Below the pieces are notes generated by a model. That model was not told the DNA's origin, did no database searches, and worked only from the letters and a program-made list of their open reading frames with translations. Below, piece by piece: positions 4,130 through 57,790 of a DNA stretch of 64,000 nt (its first letter is position 1; each line of letters opens with the position of its first letter). The stretch is from assembly GCA_963575745.1 (NCBI GenBank), contig CAUYUJ010014589.1, positions 325,001 to 389,000 on the forward strand, in the 5' to 3' direction. Position numbers and translations under genes: made by a program. Source of the stretch: Prorocentrum cordatum (lineage: Eukaryota; Sar; Dinophyceae; Prorocentrales; Prorocentraceae).

Positions 4130-4800
4130 CGAACAGAACTTGCATCAGCGGTGCTGCAATACACCCTCCCGTCCAAGGTCCTCTTGTCTCAGGGTTCTAC
4201 GGGAAGGCTTCCTACTGATCCCAAGAAGCACCCTCGAACGACCAGCCCCACGTGGTCCAGTTATTCAGGCGAGCGCCGCGTTTTCTCAACGGGAAAGCCT
4301 CTACACCCTTCTAGCGAATAGCAAGAACATGTGAGAAAGGTGTGATCCGATTGTGCAGTCCAGTGGGGTGCCCAGCGATGCGATGGTCTCCTTGTAAGAA
4401 CCGACAGCCCCCCCCATCCCTGTTACCGCTGCACAGACGTGCACCTGGCCGTGGGCTTCCTGGATGTCTGAAGCGAGAGCCCCATTTTGAGGAGGAACCG
4501 CCCTCCATCCGTGTAGCTGCTTCTGACTTCAGTAAACCCCGAGCGAGCGTACCATGATGAACATAACCGTTCTTCATCGCTGTAACTGTCGAACCTGCTG
4601 TTGAACGCTTTTGCAAGGAATGTGCGCAGCGCTCAGGTGAGAGCCTCATGCTAATTTCCTTTCATCGCTGCAAGTGCTGCCGGCTTTCATGTGAAACGTG
4701 CGCGGCGCTAAGGCGAGCTTGATCTCGAACACGACTTCCCTCTCTCCTTGTAGCCGTTACTGGCATATTCGGACGACAGCACGTCGCTAAGGTGCCAGTT
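4130..4800 (+). repeat. Element X, diverged copy
   Basis: The head contains GCAATACACCCTCCCGTCC (about 4,156), matched inverted near 43,510. The tail contains degenerate 83-bp units such as GAGAGCCCCATTTTGAGG (4,469), GTGCGCAGCGCTCAGG (4,621) and GTGCGCGGCGCTAAGGCG (4,700). The order is purine tract, head, tail, as in the 5.7 and 6.6 kb copies. No coding capacity is recognised. Confidence 0.5.
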
Positions 4801-4999: not shown

Positions 5000-5545
5000 T
5001 CACTTTCCACCTCGCTTGCCGCCGAAATCGTTCATCATCCGAGCGATGATGAAAGCTTCCGAGGCCGCCACACCTGGCACGCCAGAGTGCGCTCCCGCGC
5101 CGCCCCGCCCTGAAAGAGGGGGGGCGGGGAAGAAAAGGAGGACGAGCAGGAGAGTGACGACTGGCGGGCGGAACGGGGGGAGGTGCCGGAGGGTGGAGTT
5201 GCATTCGCAGGAGGACGCGGAGAAGAACGGCTCACCGAACGCCTTCCGCTGCTCGCAAACGTCCGAAACAAAACATGTCTTCCTGTACGTGATGGATCGT
5301 AGATCGTAGATCCCCCGCGGCGGATCCAGGCCATTTACGAGCAGCTGCTTTGCGACTAGTGGAACTCGCTCGTCCGAGGAAAGCGAGGAGGCCAAGCGCC
5401 CTCCGCACGCGCTTCGGCCACACTGTGAGCCCCCCCGCCCTCCATCGGTGGCCCCCTGATGGGGCGAGGGCGCACGCGCCGTGGAGCCACTGCTCCGATC
5501 GCCTGCTCGGGGCCGCGGTCTCCCTTCGGCCGGCCTCCCGCCGCT
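5000..5545. other. Unrecognised GC-rich sequence
   Basis: No exon with matching splice sites, no RNA gene and no clear repeat seen. Confidence 0.4.
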
Positions 5546-20301: not shown

Positions 20302-21190
20302 GTAACATGTAAGCACGTGGGTCGTGTGAGTAGGTTCACCGAACCCCAACATGTCATTTAGGGTTGGCCGCGGGCACCCAGGGTTGCATCCCGCGGCCCC
20401 GCGGCTTTTTGGACATCAGTTAAGCCCAATTGCCTCCCGCCCGAAGCTCGCGCCATGGCGCCCGCTGCGCGCAGATAAGTCACGACTTTCCTCTAACTGT
20501 GACGGGGTATTGCCCACCGTATGTTAAAATCAGTGGGCCACTATTGGGGGTTTCGGGTGAGTTTGAGACTGATTGGGAATGATTGAGAAGGTTGGGTGGC
20601 AACGGTGGACCGAAGGGCCCCAGGCGCCACAAGTGCGCGCCCATGGCGCGACATCTGTGCAACTCTTATGAGACCGTGAAGATAGGTAGACGAGGGGGGC
20701 GGGGAGGATGAGGTGGCATGAACAGGCATGCGAGCGGTCGGGGGCCCGACGACCGCACCTTTCGTCTTCGGCCCACAATGTTTCTTGCGCGGGTGCTCCA
20801 GGGGCCCCGACTCGACCGTCGCAGCGGTAGAACCTTGAAAGTTTCATCTTCGAGTTCGGGGCGTCGCTCGTCTCACGCCCCTTCCTCTCCGCAAACCCCC
20901 CCTCTCTTCCTTCGCCCCGCGCAGTGGGGCAGAAAGCAGTCGAGACGTGCAATGCGGGGACGCATTGCCGGAGCTCTAAACCGATACTTGCGCAACAGCA
21001 AACGAAGGGTTGAATAAACGAGCTTGAACTGGCACTACGGGGGGCGCCATCAAAACTTTGACATTGAGATTTAGGGTTCTACCGACGCTCCACCCTATAA
21101 GATGATATGACCGCTTTCGGGCTTACAGAAACCCCACCCTCTAAGATGCGACTTTTGGGCTGCTATTGGATCCCCCCCCCTGCTCGTCGC
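20302..21190. other. Unrecognised sequence between exon and SL
   Basis: Starts as a putative intron. It has no repeat or exon I can support. A C-run and pyrimidine-rich stretch (21,170-21,195) immediately precedes the SL. Confidence 0.4.
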
Positions 21191-21195
21191 CCATC

Positions 21196-21217
21196 TCCGT
21201 AGCCATTTTGGCTCAAG
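21196..21217 (+). other. Genomically encoded dinoflagellate spliced leader (relict SL)
   Basis: All 22 positions agree with the dinoflagellate trans-spliced leader consensus (D-CCGTAGCC...GGCTCAAG), here with T at the variable first base. The SL is normally added in trans to mRNA 5' ends, so an encoded copy in front of a reading frame is the known mark of an mRNA that was reverse-transcribed and reinserted. It is not an SL RNA gene: the exon is not followed by a GT donor but by GCATTTTGCTC. That next stretch (21,218-21,231) resembles the SL 3' part CCATTTTGGCTCAAG with a base lost and the end changed, as expected for an older relict SL one recycling round back. Confidence 0.92.
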
Positions 21218-21256
21218 GCATTTTGCTCTGGCCACGCCGTGGGCTCCAGCGAGCTC

Positions 21257-22249
21257 ATGGCAGGGACTGCCGTCGCCGAAGATGGCATCCGAGGGGACGT
21301 GGGCGACGCTGGCAGTGATGTTGGCGGCGGCGCTGTGGCCGTTGAGCCCGACGGCGTCGGGGGTCCGCCGACCGTCGCCGATGCGTTTACGCGACCTCGG
21401 CGCAGACGGGCGCCTGCGCCGCCGCCCGCGCACGGCCAGTTTTCTGCCTTGCTTGTCGGGCGCCCCGACGACGGGGAGGTGGCGCCTCAGAGTTTGGTGG
21501 ATCAGTTCGAGGGCGGTCGTGGCATGAGCGTTGTTGGGTATTGTTCGTGCCAATGGTCTCTGGAGACGCCGTGTAGCGACGCCAAGGACCGCCGCGCTGC
21601 TGCTCTGGTCACTTCTCCAGCATCAGCTGCAGTGGCATTTGGATTTGTCCACTACGAGGTGTCCGACGTCTGGCAGCTGTCGCAGGTCGCGCCCGTCCCT
21701 GCCAGCTTGCAAGGAGACGTAGATGACCCATCGCATCTCCCCAACCTGCTGGAGATGATTGTTGACAGAGCCGCTGGCACCCGTTTCACTGCGAACCGCC
21801 GTTCGGCGGCGGCAGATGCGTTGGACTCAGTGTGCCACATATTATTGTTGAGTCTTCCTGTGCTGGCCAGCGCGCTTGTGTCCACGTCGGAGGTCGCGCT
21901 GGCGTCGTGCAAGTTGTGCGCTCGATTCATGGCGGCAGGTCTCGTGCCGAACCACCCGACGCGAGCCATCATCCGACGATGGCGGCGCGCGCATCGCCCG
22001 CCCAGGGCGTCTGCGAGGCAGGCTCGACCACTGGCGCCAGGAGCACTGCCCTCGCGCGAGGACGTCGCGCTGCAGCTGCCGCCGCCCAAGCGCCAGCGCC
22101 AGCAGGTCAGCGCCGGCGGCGGCGACGCCGAGCCAGCTCGCGGGAAGAGGAAGGCCGACCCCGTCAGGTTCTACAAAGCTCTGAAGTTCAGGCGCCACTT
22201 GCGATCGGCTCGAGACTTCAAGCTGGCGCTGGCCGACGCCAGCGCGTAA
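21257..22249 (+). CDS. SL-tagged reading frame, unknown product
   Basis: Opens with ATG 39 nt after the SL and reads 330 codons to TAA at 22,247-22,249. The N-terminus is acidic and Gly-rich (MAGTAVAEDGIRGDVGDAGS); a Pro/Arg-rich linker follows. The middle is folded-protein-like (SVVGYCSCQWSLETPCSDAK, PNLLEMIVDRAAGTRFTANR). The C-terminus is basic with two possible nuclear localisation patches (PPKRQRQQ and GKRKADP) and KALKFRRHLRSARDFKLALA. The terminal bases GCGTAAGA also match a 5' splice site, so the true product may continue into exons downstream rather than stop. The long uninterrupted frame fits an intron-free retrocopy. The domain family is not recognised. Confidence 0.6.
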   Translation: MAGTAVAEDGIRGDVGDAGSDVGGGAVAVEPDGVGGPPTVADAFTRPRRRRAPAPPPAHGQFSALLVGRPDDGEVAPQSLVDQFEGGRGMSVVGYCSCQWSLETPCSDAKDRRAAALVTSPASAAVAFGFVHYEVSDVWQLSQVAPVPASLQGDVDDPSHLPNLLEMIVDRAAGTRFTANRRSAAADALDSVCHILLLSLPVLASALVSTSEVALASCKLCARFMAAGLVPNHPTRAIIRRWRRAHRPPRASARQARPLAPGALPSREDVALQLPPPKRQRQQVSAGGGDAEPARGKRKADPVRFYKALKFRRHLRSARDFKLALADASA

Positions 22250-22800
22250 GACCTCGACGCGGGGGCCGAGGAGAGGGGCGCCATCGGCGACATTGACAGG
22301 AGTTGGTGGCCCAACGCCGTCGCCGATCCCTTATGCCCGCTGCCATTCCCAGAGCCCGCCCCGACGCTCGCCGCCCCGCCTCCTAGTTTGGCGGCGGGGG
22401 GGTTCGCGTAGATCCCCCTCGTGGCTCCCACGGGCTTTCGGGGTGGGGTCTGTTTTCGGGGTCGGGGCGGTGTTGGTGCCGACCGTGAGGACGAGTCTCG
22501 AGGGTGGCCTGCAGCGCATCGACATCTTGGCCATGCTCCTTCACCGTCGGCGGCGGCGCGCCGGTCGGGTCCATGACCGCGTCGGATGCGAGCCCGAACT
22601 GTGGAGAGGAACTCCAGGGTGCTATCGCGTCGGTTCTCCGCGTGGACGGCTCGTTTTACCACGTTGCGTTTGCTGGCAGTTCACTTTGCCATGGACATGC
22701 AGACTTAATATCAAAAGGCATTGCCTTACTCTGGGGCGCGTAGCTATTATTTGGACAGGGCGAAGAAGATCTGCAATATTTTTGTGAGAAGGTTACTTCA
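22250..22800 (+). other. Possible intron and short coding patch
   Basis: If GTAAGA at 22,246 is a donor this is intronic. A patch at about 22,610-22,740 reads GEELQGAIASVLRVDGSFYH and FAGSSLCHGHADLISKGIAL before TAG at 22,741. This could be an exon, but its borders are unclear. Confidence 0.35.
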
Positions 22801-22801
22801 G

Positions 22802-23435
22802 TGACGACCGACATGGGGACGGAACGGATGACAATTCAGTTGCCGAATTTGCGGGCTGCGTTCTGGCTCTGGTTGCGCGGTGAGCCCGTCGGCAACCTCA
22901 TGGCGCACGCGGTGCAACATGAGAGACTCTTGCCCAACGCCATCCGCATGAGTGGATGGGGTCATACGTTCGGCAATTTGGCTAAGCATTGCTGTCAGAC
23001 GTGGCCGCAGTGGCCTGCGAAGCCTTCACGCTCGCGGCGTTTATGCAGCTTCTTCAAGAACGCGACGCACCGCAATCACATCAAGAAGACGTTGAGCGAA
23101 GAGCCCCCCACTTTAGGCGGGGGTGTTCTGGATCGCTTCACGGCGGGCTTCGCGAAGTGGAGGTACCAGGCCTTGGAGGTCATGCTTCGCCAGTTGTCTT
23201 CTCTGCGTGAGGTCCGCACTTGTATTCGGTCTGAGTGGTTCCGCAATTGCCAGGACTCCGATGTTGCAGCAGTGTTCGACTCCTTGGCAGATGACACGTT
23301 GCGGTACTTCATCGCGCACGCTGGACGGCATCTTTTTACGCCGCTGGAGCATGACCGCTTCTGGGGGATGACTTGCGCGCGCCCAGAGCGCGCCCGGCAG
23401 CGGTCTGAGGCGAGAGCCCGAGGGCGCAGCATCCA
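22802..23435 (+). CDS. Coding segment, unknown product (frame disturbed)
   Basis: Begins after GGTTACTTCAG and reads protein-like sequence: RMTIQLPNLRAAFWLWLRGE, MAHAVQHERLLPNAIRMSGW, then, after a stretch where another frame reads better (VAAVACEAFTLAAFMQLLQE, about 22,995-23,060), GFAKWRYQALEVMLRQLSSL and DTLRYFIAHAGRHLFTPLEH. It is rich in Trp, Arg and Leu. The frame change in the middle suggests indels. It ends in an Arg-rich run and a T/TA microsatellite. Unknown family; probably the same gene or pseudogene as the SL-tagged frame. Confidence 0.45.
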
Positions 23436-23440
23436 CGCCG

Positions 23441-24290: not shown

Positions 24291-24540
24291 TGCGCGACGG
24301 CACGCTTGGCAAACGCGCGGGAGAGAGGGGCTGCGAGGGCGGGGGTGGGCAAGGTGAACCATGTTCTTCCTCCCCGTGAGTCCTCGTCTTGGAACCCTAC
24401 GAGCTCCCTCCACTCCAATCCCCTCGTCTTCCTGCTATCTCCCCCTGCGCCTTCCCTAGCCGAGCGGCTGCCCAGCCATGGCGCTTGTTTGATTCGCCCT
24501 CCCCCCGCGCCTCCCCCTCCCCCCAGCGGCCGCGCGCCCT
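24291..24540. other. Pyrimidine-rich probable intron
   Basis: C/T-rich sequence with ACCATG...CCCCGTGAGT near 24,360 and a long CCTCCCCCTCC run ending in CGCCCTAG, a typical acceptor. Confidence 0.45.
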
Positions 24541-24548
24541 AGTTCGTC

Positions 24549-25733
24549 ATGGGTGTCTTTTCGCGCGCGCCCCGTGTCCAAGAGGATGGGGCTGAAAGGG
24601 CGTCTGAACGGGAGGTGTTCTTCAAAGTATTGGAGGCGGCACGCGGGAGATCGCGCGCCCACCTCATGCCGACGGCCGAGAGCGCGGGCGATCCGCAGGT
24701 CACTTCCGCTTTGGCCCTCCACGTCGTGATGGAGGCCTGCACCGCGGAGCCGCCGAGTGGAATGATCTCTGGTTCGAAACATGTAGTGGCAGATGACGCC
24801 CCTCAATGGATACGGCCATTCTCCATCACTTCTTTTGAGAAGGTCTACAGCACGATGCAGCACTGGAGCAAGGCTGAACCCTCGAGCGCGCAGCCAGGCG
24901 CATTGGTGTTGTCTGAGCCGCAGGCCGCTCGCCCACCGCGCAGCATCTTGGACTCCCGCTGCCCCGCCATTGCAGTGGTGATTCATGTGAAGTCGAAGGG
25001 TTGGAAAGCGGTGCAGCGCCAGGTTGACCACGTCAGCTTTGCTTTCGGCGACATGGACGGGGCCGAGGCCGTGCGGATGAAGCCGTACTTCCAGGCGCTG
25101 GCTTCCATCGACAAGTGCATGCCCTCACCTCGCACATGCCCTCACGTCAGCCCACTTAAGTGCGATGCATGCCTCCTGCGAGGCGCCCCAGCCGAGCCTG
25201 GCCAGTCGAGCGTCGAGTACGCGCTGGCGCTCAACAGGACCAGCGGCAAGAAGGGGCTGCTGGCGCGCCGCCTGGCTTTGGAGGATGCGCCAGCCTTGCT
25301 GGCGCTTCCGGGCGCTGGCGGAGACGACGACGGCGTCGGCGGAGCTCTGCCGCCCCAGGATGCCCCTCAGCGGCGGCGCGGGCGCGACTCAGCCCCCTCG
25401 CGCAGCGCTGGCAGCCGCTTGGGTGGCCCGCTCGGAGATGAACCCTTGCCTTTTGTTTCGCAGCCAGTCTCTGGCGGCGGCGGCGCGGACGGCGGAGCCG
25501 ATGCCGTTGGCTTGCGCGAGCTGCTTGGCTCGGAGGGCTCGCCAGCGGCGCCAGAGGCCCCACCCGCCGCCGCGCCAGACGGAGACGTGGGCGGCGCCAG
25601 CGCCAGTGCTGGCCCGCCACCGCGCGCCGTCGCTGGCGCGCCCCGCAATCCCAACCGACTCCGTCGGGAGTGGATCGATGGTCTTGATGGTTGCAAGATT
25701 TTCGTATCAAGTGTACATTTCTGGGCAGCATAA
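24549..25733 (+). CDS. Long coding segment, unknown product
   Basis: A 394-codon frame starting with ATG nine bases after a CCCTAG acceptor. It may be an internal or terminal exon rather than a full gene. The N-terminal half is ordered (SEREVFFKVLEAARGRSRAH, PQWIRPFSITSFEKVYSTMQ, QVDHVSFAFGDMDGAEAVRM) and includes a small Cys/His group (CMPSPRTCPHVSPLKCDACL), possibly metal-binding. After about residue 240 it becomes an Ala/Gly/Pro-rich disordered tail. The last codons after GGTTGCAAG may be intron. Transcription is the same direction as the SL-tagged frame 2.3 kb upstream, so it may be part of one gene. Family not recognised. Confidence 0.55.
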   Translation: MGVFSRAPRVQEDGAERASEREVFFKVLEAARGRSRAHLMPTAESAGDPQVTSALALHVVMEACTAEPPSGMISGSKHVVADDAPQWIRPFSITSFEKVYSTMQHWSKAEPSSAQPGALVLSEPQAARPPRSILDSRCPAIAVVIHVKSKGWKAVQRQVDHVSFAFGDMDGAEAVRMKPYFQALASIDKCMPSPRTCPHVSPLKCDACLLRGAPAEPGQSSVEYALALNRTSGKKGLLARRLALEDAPALLALPGAGGDDDGVGGALPPQDAPQRRRGRDSAPSRSAGSRLGGPLGDEPLPFVSQPVSGGGGADGGADAVGLRELLGSEGSPAAPEAPPAAAPDGDVGGASASAGPPPRAVAGAPRNPNRLRREWIDGLDGCKIFVSSVHFWAA

Positions 25734-25877
25734 CACAGTTTACAAGAACTTCAGAATTCAATGCATGAGCCCCGCGCGCGGCGCTGAGTGCCGAAAGACG
25801 CGGGGTGACATCGATTCGGCCAAGAGGAATTCTGGACCTCTGGAGCCTCTCGCTTTTCTTCATTGCTGGTTGAATTT

Positions 25878-26423: not shown

Positions 26424-26855
26424 ATGTCTGCGAAGATTCGCCCTGCGGCGGCGGGGCCCATCCTTCCAGTGGTCGGCGAGTTTCGCCGGCCCGGCCCGCG
26501 GGCCCTCGAGAGGACCGTCCTGCGCCAGACAAAACGCATCCGCTCGCTCAACATCCAGGTTTTCTGGCCGAAGAAGCGCACCAAGGCGCTGAAGACGGCG
26601 ATGCTTCAGATGAAGAAGGCCGCCGAGAGCATCGCCGCCGCAGACGACCAGAGCTGCGCCCAGATGCATATTGAGATCAACAGGGCTGAGGACCGCCACC
26701 CGCCTCAGATGCAGACGGAGCACGAGCCAGAGCGAGGAGCCCGCCGCCCTGTCACCACGGTCGGCCTGGAGAGAGCTCGGCCCGCAGAGCACCTCGGGCC
26801 TCGAGTGCTGCAGCTGGCGCGCCATCAGTTGGCATTGGCCAGCTGCGTTGCTTAG
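26424..26855 (+). CDS. Possible exon, unknown product
   Basis: An open frame of 143 codons with the protein-like stretch TKRIRSLNIQVFWPKKRTKA, LKTAMLQMKKAAESIAAADD and MHIEINRAEDRHPPQMQTEH, ending in TAG. The N-terminal 40 residues are less convincing and may be intron. It could be a last exon of the gene at 21-25.7 kb. Not recognised. Confidence 0.35.
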   Translation: MSAKIRPAAAGPILPVVGEFRRPGPRALERTVLRQTKRIRSLNIQVFWPKKRTKALKTAMLQMKKAAESIAAADDQSCAQMHIEINRAEDRHPPQMQTEHEPERGARRPVTTVGLERARPAEHLGPRVLQLARHQLALASCVA

Positions 26856-34417: not shown

Positions 34418-34789
34418 GTTGTAAACCTGCCCGAGGCTATCGTGGCCAAGAAGCGCCTGGAGAAGAGCGGGCTCTCGCGCGAGTGGAGGTTCGTGAGGGA
34501 CAAGATCAGGTCGTACCTGATTGGCAAGAGGCTGCCAGACGCCGTGGCGATGATATCGGCGAACACCTTGAACGACTTGGGCATGCCATCGAACGAGTAC
34601 GGATTGAAGATTGAGTACAATGTGGTTGCAGACCACCCTGCGGACAACATCAGCGTGAACACGTTCCTGGAGCCGTTCATCATCAGGAAGCCGCAGGACG
34701 TGGATAAGGCCTCCAGGGACATCTTCCAGCAGACGTTCGCGAACATGTGCGAGGAGCAGGACAAGCCCATGGCGGCCAAAAATGACAGG
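34418..34789 (+). CDS. Exon of the 29-35 kb gene (central domain)
   Basis: Follows CCGCCCCAA(G). It reads VVNLPEAIVAKKRLEKSGLS, WRFVRDKIRSYLIGKRLPDA, VAMISANTLNDLGMPSNEYG and FLEPFIIRKPQDVDKASRDI, ending KPMAAKNDR at a TGA. The next frame continues directly with protein-like sequence from 34,789, and one extra G in AGGTGA would join them. The alternative is that CAG-GTGAGA is a donor, but then the coding run immediately after it would be unexplained. The exact acceptor phase does not fit perfectly. Confidence 0.6.
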
Positions 34790-35412
34790 TGAGAGACTAC
34801 ATGCGAAAGAATGACTTGGGATCGGCTTGGGGGACCCTGGGCTACACGCCGAGTTTCTGCTTCAAGCTCGACGGCGAAGATGGCGATGTTTCGACTGACC
34901 CACTGGGCGGGCTCCGCGTGGCCGTATATGGGCGCAGCACTGGGGAGTGGAAGACTGAAAAGGCCACGCTGCCATGGTCTCAGTGCCCGATCTTCGTCCA
35001 GCAGTTCAGTGGTCTCGATTTCAACGGGCTGCTGGAGAACGCCGAGTCTGGGGCGCTCTACAAGCATCGGTCGTGCTTGCTCGAGGCGGGCAGCGCTGTG
35101 TACGCGCCGATGGGTTACGTGCCGTTCTTGGCCCCCATCGCGGCCAGCGTCGACTGGAAGAGCAAGAAGCCCAACCTCAAGGAGTCCAAGCGCGGCGCCG
35201 AGGTGAAGCACCTGGCCAGCTACGGCATCAGCTACTTCTTGGAGGACCGCGTCCGCGAGAAGTCGCCTTCGGGCGCTCTCGCAGCCGCGGCCGCCGCTTG
35301 GGTCGCGGCCAAGACGACCCAGCTCCCGAAGTCGTTCAAGGCCAACTCGGACATGGACGCCTGGTTCGACGCCTGCGGCCAGGGTGCAGCTCGCGGCGAG
35401 ATGGTCGACTAG
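34789..35412 (+). CDS. Terminal coding segment of the 29-35 kb gene, unknown function
   Basis: About 207 codons ending in TAG at 35,410-35,412. Motifs: RDYMRKNDLGSAWGTLGYTP, GGLRVAVYGRSTGEWKTEKA, CPIFVQQFSGLDFNGLLENA, LLEAGSAVYAPMGYVPFLAP, then a helical AAAAAWVAAKTTQLPKSFKA and an acidic end. The EAGSAVYAPMGYVP stretch loosely recalls the 'gdvlyvPpGw' turn of cupin/JmjC-type beta barrels, but the metal-binding His/Asp set is not visible, so I do not assign it. With the upstream exons this gives a plus-strand gene of at least 6 kb with phase-0 introns full of repeats. The two apparent single-base losses make a young pseudogene or assembly indels possible. Long open frames on the opposite strand here are shadows. 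Confidence 0.65.
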   Translation: MRDYMRKNDLGSAWGTLGYTPSFCFKLDGEDGDVSTDPLGGLRVAVYGRSTGEWKTEKATLPWSQCPIFVQQFSGLDFNGLLENAESGALYKHRSCLLEAGSAVYAPMGYVPFLAPIAASVDWKSKKPNLKESKRGAEVKHLASYGISYFLEDRVREKSPSGALAAAAAAWVAAKTTQLPKSFKANSDMDAWFDACGQGAARGEMVD

Positions 35413-38489: not shown

Positions 38490-40570
38490 AGGAGAGTTGC
38501 GAGGCCGAAGCGGATAGCGACCGCACCCCCATCGCACCCCTGGTGGCGTCGAGAAAGTGCCACGCTTGCCGCGATATCCGTGGCCGAAACGGATAGCGAC
38601 CGCACCCCCAGCGCACCCCCTTGTGGCATGGAGAAACTGCCGCGCTTGCCACACGTTGCGAGTCCGAAGCGCATAGCGACCGCCCCCCCAGCCCAATCCT
38701 TTGTGGCGCCGCGAAAGTGCCACGCTTGCCACGCGGTGCGTGGCCGAAACGGATAGCGGCCGCACCCCCAGCCCAATCCCTTGCGGCGCCGCGAAAGTGC
38801 CACGCTTGCCACGCTTGGCGAGGCCGAAACGGATAACGACCGCACCTCCAGCGCACCCCCTGTGGCCTGCCACGCTTTGCGAGACCGAAGCGGATAGAGA
38901 CCGCACCCTCAGCGCACCCCCTGTGGCGCCGAGAAAGTGCCACGCCTGCCGCGCTTTGCGGCGCCGAAGCGGATAGCGATCGCACCCCCAGTGCACGCCT
39001 TGTGGCATGGAGAAAGTGCCACGCCTGCCACACGTTGTGAGCCCGAAACGGATAGCGGCCGCACCCCCAGCGCACCCCTTGTGGCGTCGAGGAAGTGCCA
39101 CGCCTGCCACGCCTTGCGAGACCAAAACGGATAGCGGCCGCACCCCCAGCGCACCCCCTGTGGCGTCGAGGAAGCGTCACGCTTGCCGCGCTTTGCGAGG
39201 CCGAAACGGATAGCGGCCGCACCCCCAGCGCACCCCGTGCGGCGTCGAGAAACTGCCACGGCTGCCACGATTTCCGTGACCGAAACGGATATCGACCGCA
39301 CCCCCAGCGCACCCCCTCTGGCATGGAGAAAGTGCCACGCTTGCGGGTCCGAAGCGCATATCGACCGCACCCCCAGCGCACACCCTGTGGCGGCGAGGAA
39401 GTGCCACGCTTGCCACGATTTCCGCGGCCGAAACGGATAGCGACCGCACCCCAGCGCACCCCCTTGTGGCATGGAGGAAGTGCCACGCCTGCCACACGTT
39501 GCGAGTCCGAAGCGCATAGCGACCGCCCCCCCAGCGCACCCCCTGTGGCGCCGAGGAAGTGCCACGCCTGCCACGCGGTGCGTGGCCGAAACGGATAGCG
39601 GCCGCACCCCCAGCCCAATCCTTTGTGGCGCCGCGAAAGTGCCACGCTTTCCACGCTTGCCGAGGCCGAAACGGATAGCGACCGCACCTCCAGCGCACCC
39701 TTTGTGGCCTGCCACGCTTTGCGAGACCGAAGCGGATAGAGACCGCACCCCCAGCGCACCCCCTGTGGCGCCGAGAAAGTGCCACGCCCGCCGCGCTTTG
39801 CGACGCCGAGGCGGATAGCGATCGCACCCCCAGCGCACGCCCTGTGGCATGGAGAAAGTGCCACGCCTGCCACACGTTGTGAGCCCGAAACGCATAGCGA
39901 CAGCACCCCCAGCGCACCCCCTGTGGCGTCGAGGAAGTGTCACGCTTGCCACGCTTTGCGAAGCCGAGACGGATAGCGACCGCACCCCCAGCGCACCCCG
40001 TGCGGCGTCGAGAAACTGCCACGGCTGCCACGATTTCCGTGACCGAAACGGATAGAGACCGCACCCCCAGCGCACCCCCTCTGGCATGGAGAAAGTGCCA
40101 CGCTTGCGGGTCCGAAGCGCATAGCGACCGCACCCCCAGCGCACACCCTGTGGCGCCGAGGAAGTACCAGCCACGCTTTGCGTGGCCGAAACGGATAGCG
40201 ACCGCACCCCCCGCGCACCCCTTGTGGCGTCGAGAAAGTGCCACGTTTGTTACGCCCTGCGATGTTGGCGCGTCTAGGGGCCGCGCTGAGGGACCACCCC
40301 CTGCGCACCCCCTCCCCGGTGTCGAGAAAATGCCACGCTTGCTAGGCGTTGCGACATTGTCGCGTATGGAAACCGCGGTGAGGGACCACCCCCGGCGCAC
40401 CGCCTCTGGCGCCGAGAAGGCTCGCATAGAGACCGCGCTGAGGGACCACCCCTGCACACCCCCGTCTGGTGTCGAGAAAGTGCCACATCTGCTAGGCCCT
40501 GCGACATTGGCGCGTATAGGGACCGCGCTGAGGGACCATCCCCTGCGCACCCTCTCTGGTGTCGAGAAAG
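38490..40570. repeat. 79-80 bp satellite with higher-order repeats
   Basis: About 22 regular units plus about four diverged ones at the right end. The unit has CCGAAACGGATAGCGACCGC, ACCCCCAGCGCACCCCCTGT, GGCGCCGAGAAAGTGCCACG and CTTGCCACGCTTTGCGAGG. Successive GGATAGCGAC sites are 79-80 bp apart (38,511; 38,590; 38,670; 38,750). Variant units recur in the same order: the CATGGAG unit at 38,621 and 39,464 (843 bp), and the GTGCGGCGTCGAGAAACTG unit at 39,238 and 40,001 (763 bp). A shortened unit (CTGTGGCCTGCCACGC) is present in both. All three minus frames are open for more than 1 kb, but as the period is not a multiple of three this reflects a stop-free unit. Confidence 0.92.
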
Positions 40571-51424: not shown

Positions 51425-51669
51425 ATGAGGCGGAGGAGGAGGAGCAGGATCGGGAGGAGCAGGAGGAAGATGAGGAAGAGGAGGAGGATGAGGAGGAGGA
51501 GGAGGAAGTGGATGATGAGGAGGTGGAGGAGGAGGAGTTGTTGTTGATGATGATGATGCTGATGATGCTGCTGATGATGACGATGCTGATGATGGTGATG
51601 ATGGTGATGGTGATGATGCTGGTGATGATGATGATGTTGCTGACGATGATGATGCTGATGCTGATGATA

Positions 51670-51738
<69 letters not shown>

Positions 51739-51945
51739 CGGATGCTGATGATGCGGATGATGATGATGATGATGCGGATGATGATGATGCTGATGATGAT
51801 GATGACGATGATGATGATGCTGATGCTGCTGCTGCTGATGATGATGATGATGCTGATGATGAGGATGATGGTGGTGGTGGTGATGGTGGTGGTGGTGATG
51901 ATGATGATGATGAGGAGGAGGAGGAGGAGGAGGAGGAGGAGGAGC
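51425..51945. repeat. GGA-GAT-GAG compound microsatellite
   Basis: GGA/GAG (51,425-51,535), GAT with GCT variants (51,540-51,910) and GAG (51,911-51,945). Confidence 0.92.
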
Positions 51946-56229: not shown

Positions 56230-56762
56230 AGGGCATAAGGAGGAGGAGGAGGAGGACACAGAAGGGCAGTGGCAAGGGAAGCAGTACGGTGATCAGAAAC
56301 ATGCTCACGAGGAGACGGTCTCGGGGATGATGCTGATGACGATGACGATGACGATGATGATGATGGTCGTGGTGGTGGTGGTAATCATGATGATGATGAT
56401 GACGACGACGACGATGATGATGATGATGATGATGATTATGATGATATTGATTGATGGATTGCTTGATGAGGATGGTGATGTTTTTGATGCTAACGATGTT
56501 GATGATGATGGTGTTGATGATGATGAGGATGCTGATAATCATGATCGTGATGATGGTGGTGATGATGATGATTCCGATTATGCTGATTGATCATGGTGGT
56601 GATAACGATGTCGGTGGTGATGCTTATGCTGATGCTGATGCTATTCATGCTGCTGCTGTTGCTGCTGCCAACGATGATTGGCGATGACGATTGTAATGAT
56701 AGTGGTGATGATGATGGTGATGCTGATGATGATGAGGGTGATGATGGTGATGATGATCATGC

Positions 56763-56818
<56 letters not shown>

Positions 56819-57602
56819 CCGATGCTGATGATATTGGTGATGCTGCTGATGATAGTTGCGATGATGATTATGATGATGCAGACGATTATGGGGCTGTGGC
56901 GAAGATGGTGATGATAGCCATGGTGAGGATATCGATGGCTCGGGCGATGACGAAGACGAAACACATGACGATGACGATGATGATGCTAATGATGATGCGA
57001 ATGGTGTTGCCTCTGGGTGATAGTGATGGTGACGACGATGATGCATCTTGTGAATGTGGTATTGAGCTTGATGTGTGGACGGACGATGGACGGGATAATG
57101 CTTATGTTGAGATGAGGATGATTTTGATGGCAAAGATGATGCCACTGATGCTTGTGATGATGACGAAGGTGATGTTGACGATGCTGATACTGATGATACT
57201 GGTGAGGCTTCTGATGACGATGGTCGCGATGCTGATTTTGGCGATGATGACGATTTTTCGAATGTGATGGTGATGGTGGTGAGGGCGATGCTGATGACTA
57301 TGATGATGCTGAAGATGATGATGATGATGCTGATGATGATGATGACGCTTATGATGGTGATGCTGATGCTGATGGTGATGCTGACGATACTGATGATGAC
57401 TTTGATGATGACGGTCGAGCTGGTGATGATGTTCCTGATGATGACGATGTTGCCGATTTGGATTAGCATGGTGGTGGTTATGATGATGACGACGACGATT
57501 ATGACGACTCGCATGATGATGACGCCGCTTTGTACTTTGAAGATGATGTCAATGATGATGATGACGATGATGATGATCATGATGTTGATGGCAATGCTAA
57601 TA

Positions 57603-57668
<66 letters not shown>

Positions 57669-57790
57669 ATGGCGATGATGATGCTGATCCTGCTGATGAT
57701 GCGATGATGGTGACGCTGATGATTATGATGATGGGGATGATGATGGTGATGCTGTTGTTGGTGATGCTGCTGACGATGCTAAAGATATTG
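56230..57790. repeat. 1.5-kb GAT microsatellite array
   Basis: GAT triplets with GCT, GGT, GAC and ATT variants. Pure GAT runs of 15 or more triplets occur near 56,765-56,815 and 57,600-57,665. Very long open frames (poly-Asp, poly-Met, poly-His/Ile) follow from this. Confidence 0.95.

Follow-up and report, generated by a model that had tools for sequence, protein, structure and literature searches.

The locus described here, which lies in a 64-kb stretch of DNA analysed at its full length (the window), is likely to be a DinoSL-tagged retrocopy of a trans-spliced mRNA, probably retroposed once before. A complete dinoflagellate spliced leader is followed directly, in exact register, by a decayed relict leader, and a coding-type signal begins at the leader. 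The locus offers a legible example of mRNA recycled more than once, with one intact leader over one decayed relict. The mechanism is an established one, and the locus is ordinary for dinoflagellates. An initial annotation had named a dinoflagellate as the organism and mRNA retroposition with an older relict as the mechanism, and this is still the best reading of the evidence.

The leader (TCCGTAGCCATTTTGGCTCAAG; Table 1) fits the consensus at 22 of 22 positions with 0 mismatches, in agreement with the full match claimed for it from the start, and it is the sole site within 3 mismatches when both strands of the window are searched. The number of such sites expected by chance is 0.00, and none of 100 shuffles gave one. 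The leader marks the window as dinoflagellate nuclear DNA. As none of its 22 nt has changed, the divergence accrued since it was last inserted would be at most about 13% (95% bound 12.7%). We note that two copies identical at 14 of 15 positions (CCACCCTATAAGATG and CCACCCTCTAAGATG) were seen by eye just 5' of the leader, at 21090-21104 and 21134-21148 on the + strand, with their starts 44 nt apart.

The bases behind the leader, GCATTTTGCTCTGG, were aligned to leader nt 8-22 (CCATTTTGGCTCAAG) with 11 matches, 3 mismatches and 1 gap, giving a score of 6, and the register is exact, the alignment beginning at the base expected for a leader minus its first 7 nt. The resemblance of these 14 bases to a relict, pointed out in the initial annotation, withstood resampling: the score was equalled in 10 of 100,000 locally matched order-1 resamples at a gap cost of 2, and in 26 and 11 of 30,000 at gap costs of 1 and 3, respectively. 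Over both strands of the window, scores at this level occur at 79 of 127,940 start positions, which are the relict itself, 8 positions overlapping the leader and 70 others. An ungapped search for relict forms with at most 3 mismatches did not list the site, because one base is deleted. The relict looks older than the leader, because it carries 4 events in 15 nt as compared to 0 in 22 (Fisher p = 0.021, a generous value, since intactness is what drew attention to the leader and so biases the comparison of ages). We thus find a relict that is cut after nt 7, adjoins the leader and is more decayed than it, which is the pattern of retrogenes that have gone through repeated rounds. After the relict, 25 nt of 5' UTR remain. 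A third, older relict (CCACGCCGTGGGCTCCAG) was considered immediately downstream and is not claimed, its score being equalled at 5179 of the 127,940 positions (4%).

Relicts are reported to have been cut at an AG, after nt 7, to lie directly downstream of the leader and to decay toward their 3' end (PMC3229502). Because of this truncation, we take the acceptor to be the TAG at 21200-21202, and a new leader, if added today, should by this analysis join directly after it. The 35 nt before this AG are 77% C/T; an equally pyrimidine-rich lead is found at 41 of the 3886 + strand AG dinucleotides in the window, or at 59 of the 3886 if the count is restricted to those 30 nt that are not part of the leader. 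The initial annotation had expected the new leader to join at the AG of 21216-21217. This is the wrong junction, as it would erase the leader and leave no relict; joining there is possible in itself, since the leader is described as holding two AG acceptor sites (PMC3229502).

As also described in that annotation, and as read from the sequence and the list of open reading frames, an ATG lies 39 nt after the leader and opens a frame of 330 codons (piece A) that ends in a TAA at 22247-22249. The length of the frame is unremarkable: the window has 90 ATG frames of 150 codons or more, 11 of which are longer. An ATG within 60 nt that opens at least 330 codons was obtained in 1 of 2000 resamples. 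The coding-type signal begins at the leader and is absent between 20203 and 21255. Indeed, three-base periodicity is 0.4-1.4 in seven windows of that interval and climbs to 2.1, 3.0 and 5.0 over the three windows that follow, the value of 5.0 not being extreme in DNA this rich in repeats (where the 75% quantile is 2.9 and the 90% quantile 6.2). An array of 12-nt repeats near 19.5-20.0 kb gave values of 7.9 and 4.6.

Of 1198 control windows, 4 attain the codon score of piece A, which ranks 6th among these 90 ATG frames; the five frames that rank higher are one in the training stretch, piece D and three in trinucleotide arrays. A 79-nt minisatellite (about 23 copies) and long TGA/GAT trinucleotide arrays are found at 38496-40249, 51545-51913 and 56326-57778, and the long open frames in the TGA/GAT arrays are probably spurious. 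The coding-like codons that continue in frame after the TAA (piece A2) have a codon score that 54 of 3853 control windows equal or exceed, and they fall mostly within a single segment-model call (21213-22352). Such a high score suggests that the TAA at 22247 may interrupt a longer frame. The protein initially placed at 21,257-22,249 thus stands as a 330-codon frame, but perhaps not as the whole coding region, a weaker coding-type signal extending past the TAA. As in retrogenes, leader and relict lie upstream of coding sequence, the coding part being recognized here by codon and periodicity signals, without homology.

Protein-like stretches in changing frames run along the + strand from 21257 to about 25,870. 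Nine pieces (A, A2, B0, B, C1, C2, D, E and F) were delimited by eye and scored with a codon model trained solely on a separate gene-like stretch. The claimed frame was the best of six in 8 of the 9 pieces, the exception being B0; the margin over the next frame was small for C1 and C2, and scores were mostly below zero in absolute terms. For piece D, the score was reached by 3 of 1198 control windows. A segment model, for which the locus itself had served as training data and which is less trustworthy than the separately trained codon model, called coding segments at 21213-22352, 22835-23437 and 24541-25701, and called none further upstream, none on the other strand, and none at B0, C1, C2, E or F. 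Periodicity drops after piece E.

The frame is interrupted by stops at 22247 and 22741, and it shifts from C1 to C2 and from D to E, with hardly any sequence left between the pieces. The two frames stay open side by side for 167 nt at C1/C2 and for 650 nt at D/E, so that an intron removing coding-like sequence is possible, and these shifts could reflect an intron, a real indel or an assembly error. For the interruptions as a whole, decay, introns and assembly errors are all possible causes. Before D, one of the 40 frame-compatible pairs would give a candidate GC-AG intron of 194 nt (24349-24542). The sequence downstream of the leader also includes a 12-T run and a TA microsatellite.

The stretch on which the codon model was trained (34424-35409, + strand) is a second gene-like stretch with a strong codon signal, and a Pfam scan of it gave no match above the curated cut-off. 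It changes frame at about 34,785, beside a five-A run, where the two frames are open together for 4 nt only; an assembly indel, an intron or a programmed shift are possible causes. Since this training gene is also frame-shifted, assembly indels may explain some of the breaks at the locus.

Table 1. Features of the leader-bearing locus (window coordinates) and the basis on which each was called.
Feature	Position	Strand	Basis
Pyrimidine-rich tract to the TAG inside the leader; predicted acceptor, junction 21202/21203	21166..21202	+	
Complete dinoflagellate spliced leader (22/22)	21196..21217	+	motif search, unique within 3 mismatches
Decayed relict leader (nt 8-22; 3 substitutions, 1 deletion)	21218..21231	+	alignment, resampling
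Possible third relict, CCACGCCGTGGGCTCCAG, not established	21232..21249	+	score reached at 4% of positions
Piece A, 330-codon frame, no family assigned	21257..22249	+	ORF, codon model, periodicity
Piece A2, 53 in-frame coding-like codons after the TAA, to TAG 22409	22250..22408	+	
Piece B0, open stretch ending in TAG 22741	22558-22740	+	claimed frame not best of six
Piece B, 211 codons, another frame	22744..23376	+	codon model, segment model
Piece C1	23577-23930	+	codon model, small margin; without segment-model call
Piece C2, different frame from C1	23947-24351	+	codon model, small margin; without segment-model call
Piece D (382 codons), preceded by a pyrimidine-rich, intron-like stretch	24549..25694	+	codon and segment models
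Piece E, frame different from D	25705..25869	+	codon model; without segment-model call
Piece F	26439-26852	+	codon model; without segment-model call

Searches for protein identity were carried out at several levels. At curated cut-offs, Pfam gave no match for A, B0, B, C1, C2, D, E, F or three other frames. In the protein collection, no homologue of piece A was found at E<=0.001 (scoring the 7997 candidates that shared most words), and none of B or D at E<=0.1 (7993 candidates scored for D). Scans of viral contigs with D and B gave no relative, a search of PDB sequences with B gave weak short matches alone (best E 0.015), and within the window no paralogues were found at E<=0.01. The collections may hold few dinoflagellate proteins, so the absence of matches says little. 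Structure models calculated without alignment were poor, with mean pLDDT values of 42.7 for A and 47.0 for B. Piece B contains a 'VTTDMGTE' stretch, which might be transposase-like.

From the arrangement of leader, relict and coding signal we infer reverse transcription, the order of two rounds and, more tentatively, a transcript shared with the later pieces. A nuclear gene would have been transcribed and a spliced leader added in trans, and this first trans-spliced mRNA would have been reverse-transcribed and inserted, placing a leader in the DNA. The inserted copy would then have been transcribed in turn, a new leader being joined at the TAG inside the embedded one and leaving its last 15 nt, and the second mRNA would have been inserted at the present locus, to give the intact leader, the decayed relict, the remainder of the 5' UTR and the coding sequence.

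Poly(A) remnants and target-site duplications are supporting, not defining, marks of retrogenes. Between 22250 and 28000 we found no A-rich stretch (9/10, 12/15 or 15/20) and, with exact words only, no target-site duplication beyond chance: the longest exact word in common with the 30 nt upstream was 9 nt (a C run), which 129 of 300 random 30-mers equalled or bettered, and exact words touching the leader reached 7 nt at most. A processed copy would not usually contain an intron-like stretch such as that before D; intron-bearing retrogenes have been reported (PMC6050394). The same source places retrogenes at 22-23% of the genes in two Symbiodinium genomes and relicts on a fifth to a quarter of full-length dinoflagellate transcripts, and describes most retrogenes as being without a detectable parent, 6.4% and 9.8% being paired (PMC6050394).

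Four other leader copies were found in three public contigs, and none has a comparable relict follower, the follower scores being -6, -7, 0 and -6 as compared to 6 at the locus. Two of the copies are on the - strand of an AT-rich contig listed as viral (L001, IMGVR_UViG_3300045993_001077; GC 0.22), in which the region 1783-2767 holds an intronless 254-aa frame (1936-2700, GC 0.49) with a complete DinoSL 45 nt upstream and GGGAAAAAATAAA after the frame and before the next gene; a second complete leader lies another 147 nt upstream. Among the products of this contig is a 975-aa protein that matches glycosyltransferase 41 and glycosyltransferase 1 and, weakly, TPR; the 254-aa frame has no relative among viral contigs except itself. 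The arrangement has the look of a trans-spliced dinoflagellate mRNA that was copied into the genome of a virus, possibly a giant one, and could also be a chimera. In JAKUNN010000063.1 (L003), a complete DinoSL followed by GT (4334-4355, - strand) lies in the spacer between the 3' end of a eukaryotic LSU and the next SSU rRNA gene; it is likely to be a leader-RNA gene inside an rDNA spacer, and the binning as Dehalococcoidia an error. In CAJXDJ010000191.1 (L002, 1-250), from a bin also titled Dehalococcoidia, a complete DinoSL follows a (TCA)n run at the contig end and adjoins sequence that by eye looks bacterial, and this is a probable chimera.

Several other explanations of the locus were weighed. 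Leader and partial leader could both stem from a tandem-SL RNA gene, joined in a single trans-splicing and inserted once. Tandem-SL RNA genes with partial leaders have been described in Fugacium, and their authors propose this same reading (PMC6616646); the 'at least two rounds' of the initial annotation are for this reason likely, and not forced. We nevertheless consider a single round unlikely, as nt 1-7 are missing from the relict, just as expected from splicing at the internal TAG, and its decay goes further than that of the leader (at the generous p = 0.021). Much less probable still is that the locus is a leader-RNA gene, intact or degenerate, in which the leader exon is followed by the start of a GC-type intron. 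The leader is indeed followed by GC (21218-21219), and leader-gene introns in Fugacium begin with GU or GC (PMC6616646), but mutation of the relict's first C to G gives the same letters. A single GTTTTC is found at 21439, 222 nt after the leader, matching the Sm motif GUUUUC proposed for Fugacium, which is not known to apply to other species, and this distance falls inside the 103-292 bp length range reported in the same work (PMC6616646). Against such a gene, there is one leader copy in 64 kb and no array, no 5S rRNA or other Rfam family reaches gathering score in the window, and folding is unexceptional (z of -1.5 and -1.4, with 12 and 18 of 200 shuffles folding equally well). The bases after the leader, moreover, fit a relict in register, and coding-type signal starts at once, in contrast to the leader and GT in the rDNA spacer of JAKUNN010000063.1. 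It is just as improbable that the leader was joined to the locus as an assembly chimera with cDNA. Such joins probably exist, as in the leader beside bacterial-looking sequence in CAJXDJ010000191.1, but GC is little changed across the leader here (0.58-0.61 before and 0.63-0.67 after), and the downstream sequence, with its changing frames, 12-T run and TA microsatellite, is not clean cDNA.

The extent of the retrocopy is a closer matter. That it comprises only piece A and its UTRs, to about 22.4 kb, with B-E as exons of a separate gene in the same direction, is a serious possibility to which we would give somewhat less than an even chance. Piece A has stops of its own at 22247 and 22409, the signal is weak over a gap to about 22.7 kb, an intron-like stretch precedes D, and unidirectional gene order is reported as usual in dinoflagellates (PMC11453091); on the other hand, A and B-E cannot be told apart by codon-model score, and the first of the gaps is short. 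We hold it to be rather improbable that the retrocopy carries a single long message of about 1,280 codons in seven pieces, from a dinoflagellate gene family that lacks recognizable relatives, and that its perfect outer leader works in place. If this were true, a role as promoter-like element or as trans-splice acceptor may have kept the outer leader perfect during the decay of relict and frame.

DinoSL retrogenes, or recycled processed cDNAs, are the subject, reportedly, of work by Slamovits and Keeling in 2008 and by Song et al. in 2017. The retrocopy described here resembles them in having a genomic leader upstream of coding sequence and a relict that is cut at nt 7 and is more decayed than the leader (PMC6050394, PMC3229502); it differs from them in that its outer leader is complete (22/22), its coding sequence is interrupted, and its protein has no relative among the collections searched. 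The tandem-SL and SL-like genes of Fugacium likewise present a leader followed by partial leaders, but the examples given are leader-RNA or pseudo-SL loci, and not the start of a coding gene (PMC6616646). Full-length DinoSL sequences are reported from genome scaffolds of S. tridacnidorum (496) and S. natans (244), so that an intact leader in assembled DNA is found there as it is here, although some of the Symbiodinium leaders lie in leader or leader-5S arrays, whereas ours stands alone in 64 kb (PMC8045281). The peridinin-chlorophyll protein gene of Amphidinium carterae is a known gene, unlike the present one, and its authors tie such motifs to highly expressed genes; its genomic leader sits exactly where trans-splicing takes place, just 5' of the coding sequence as at our locus, and an RNA intermediate was suggested to account for it (PMC2488372).
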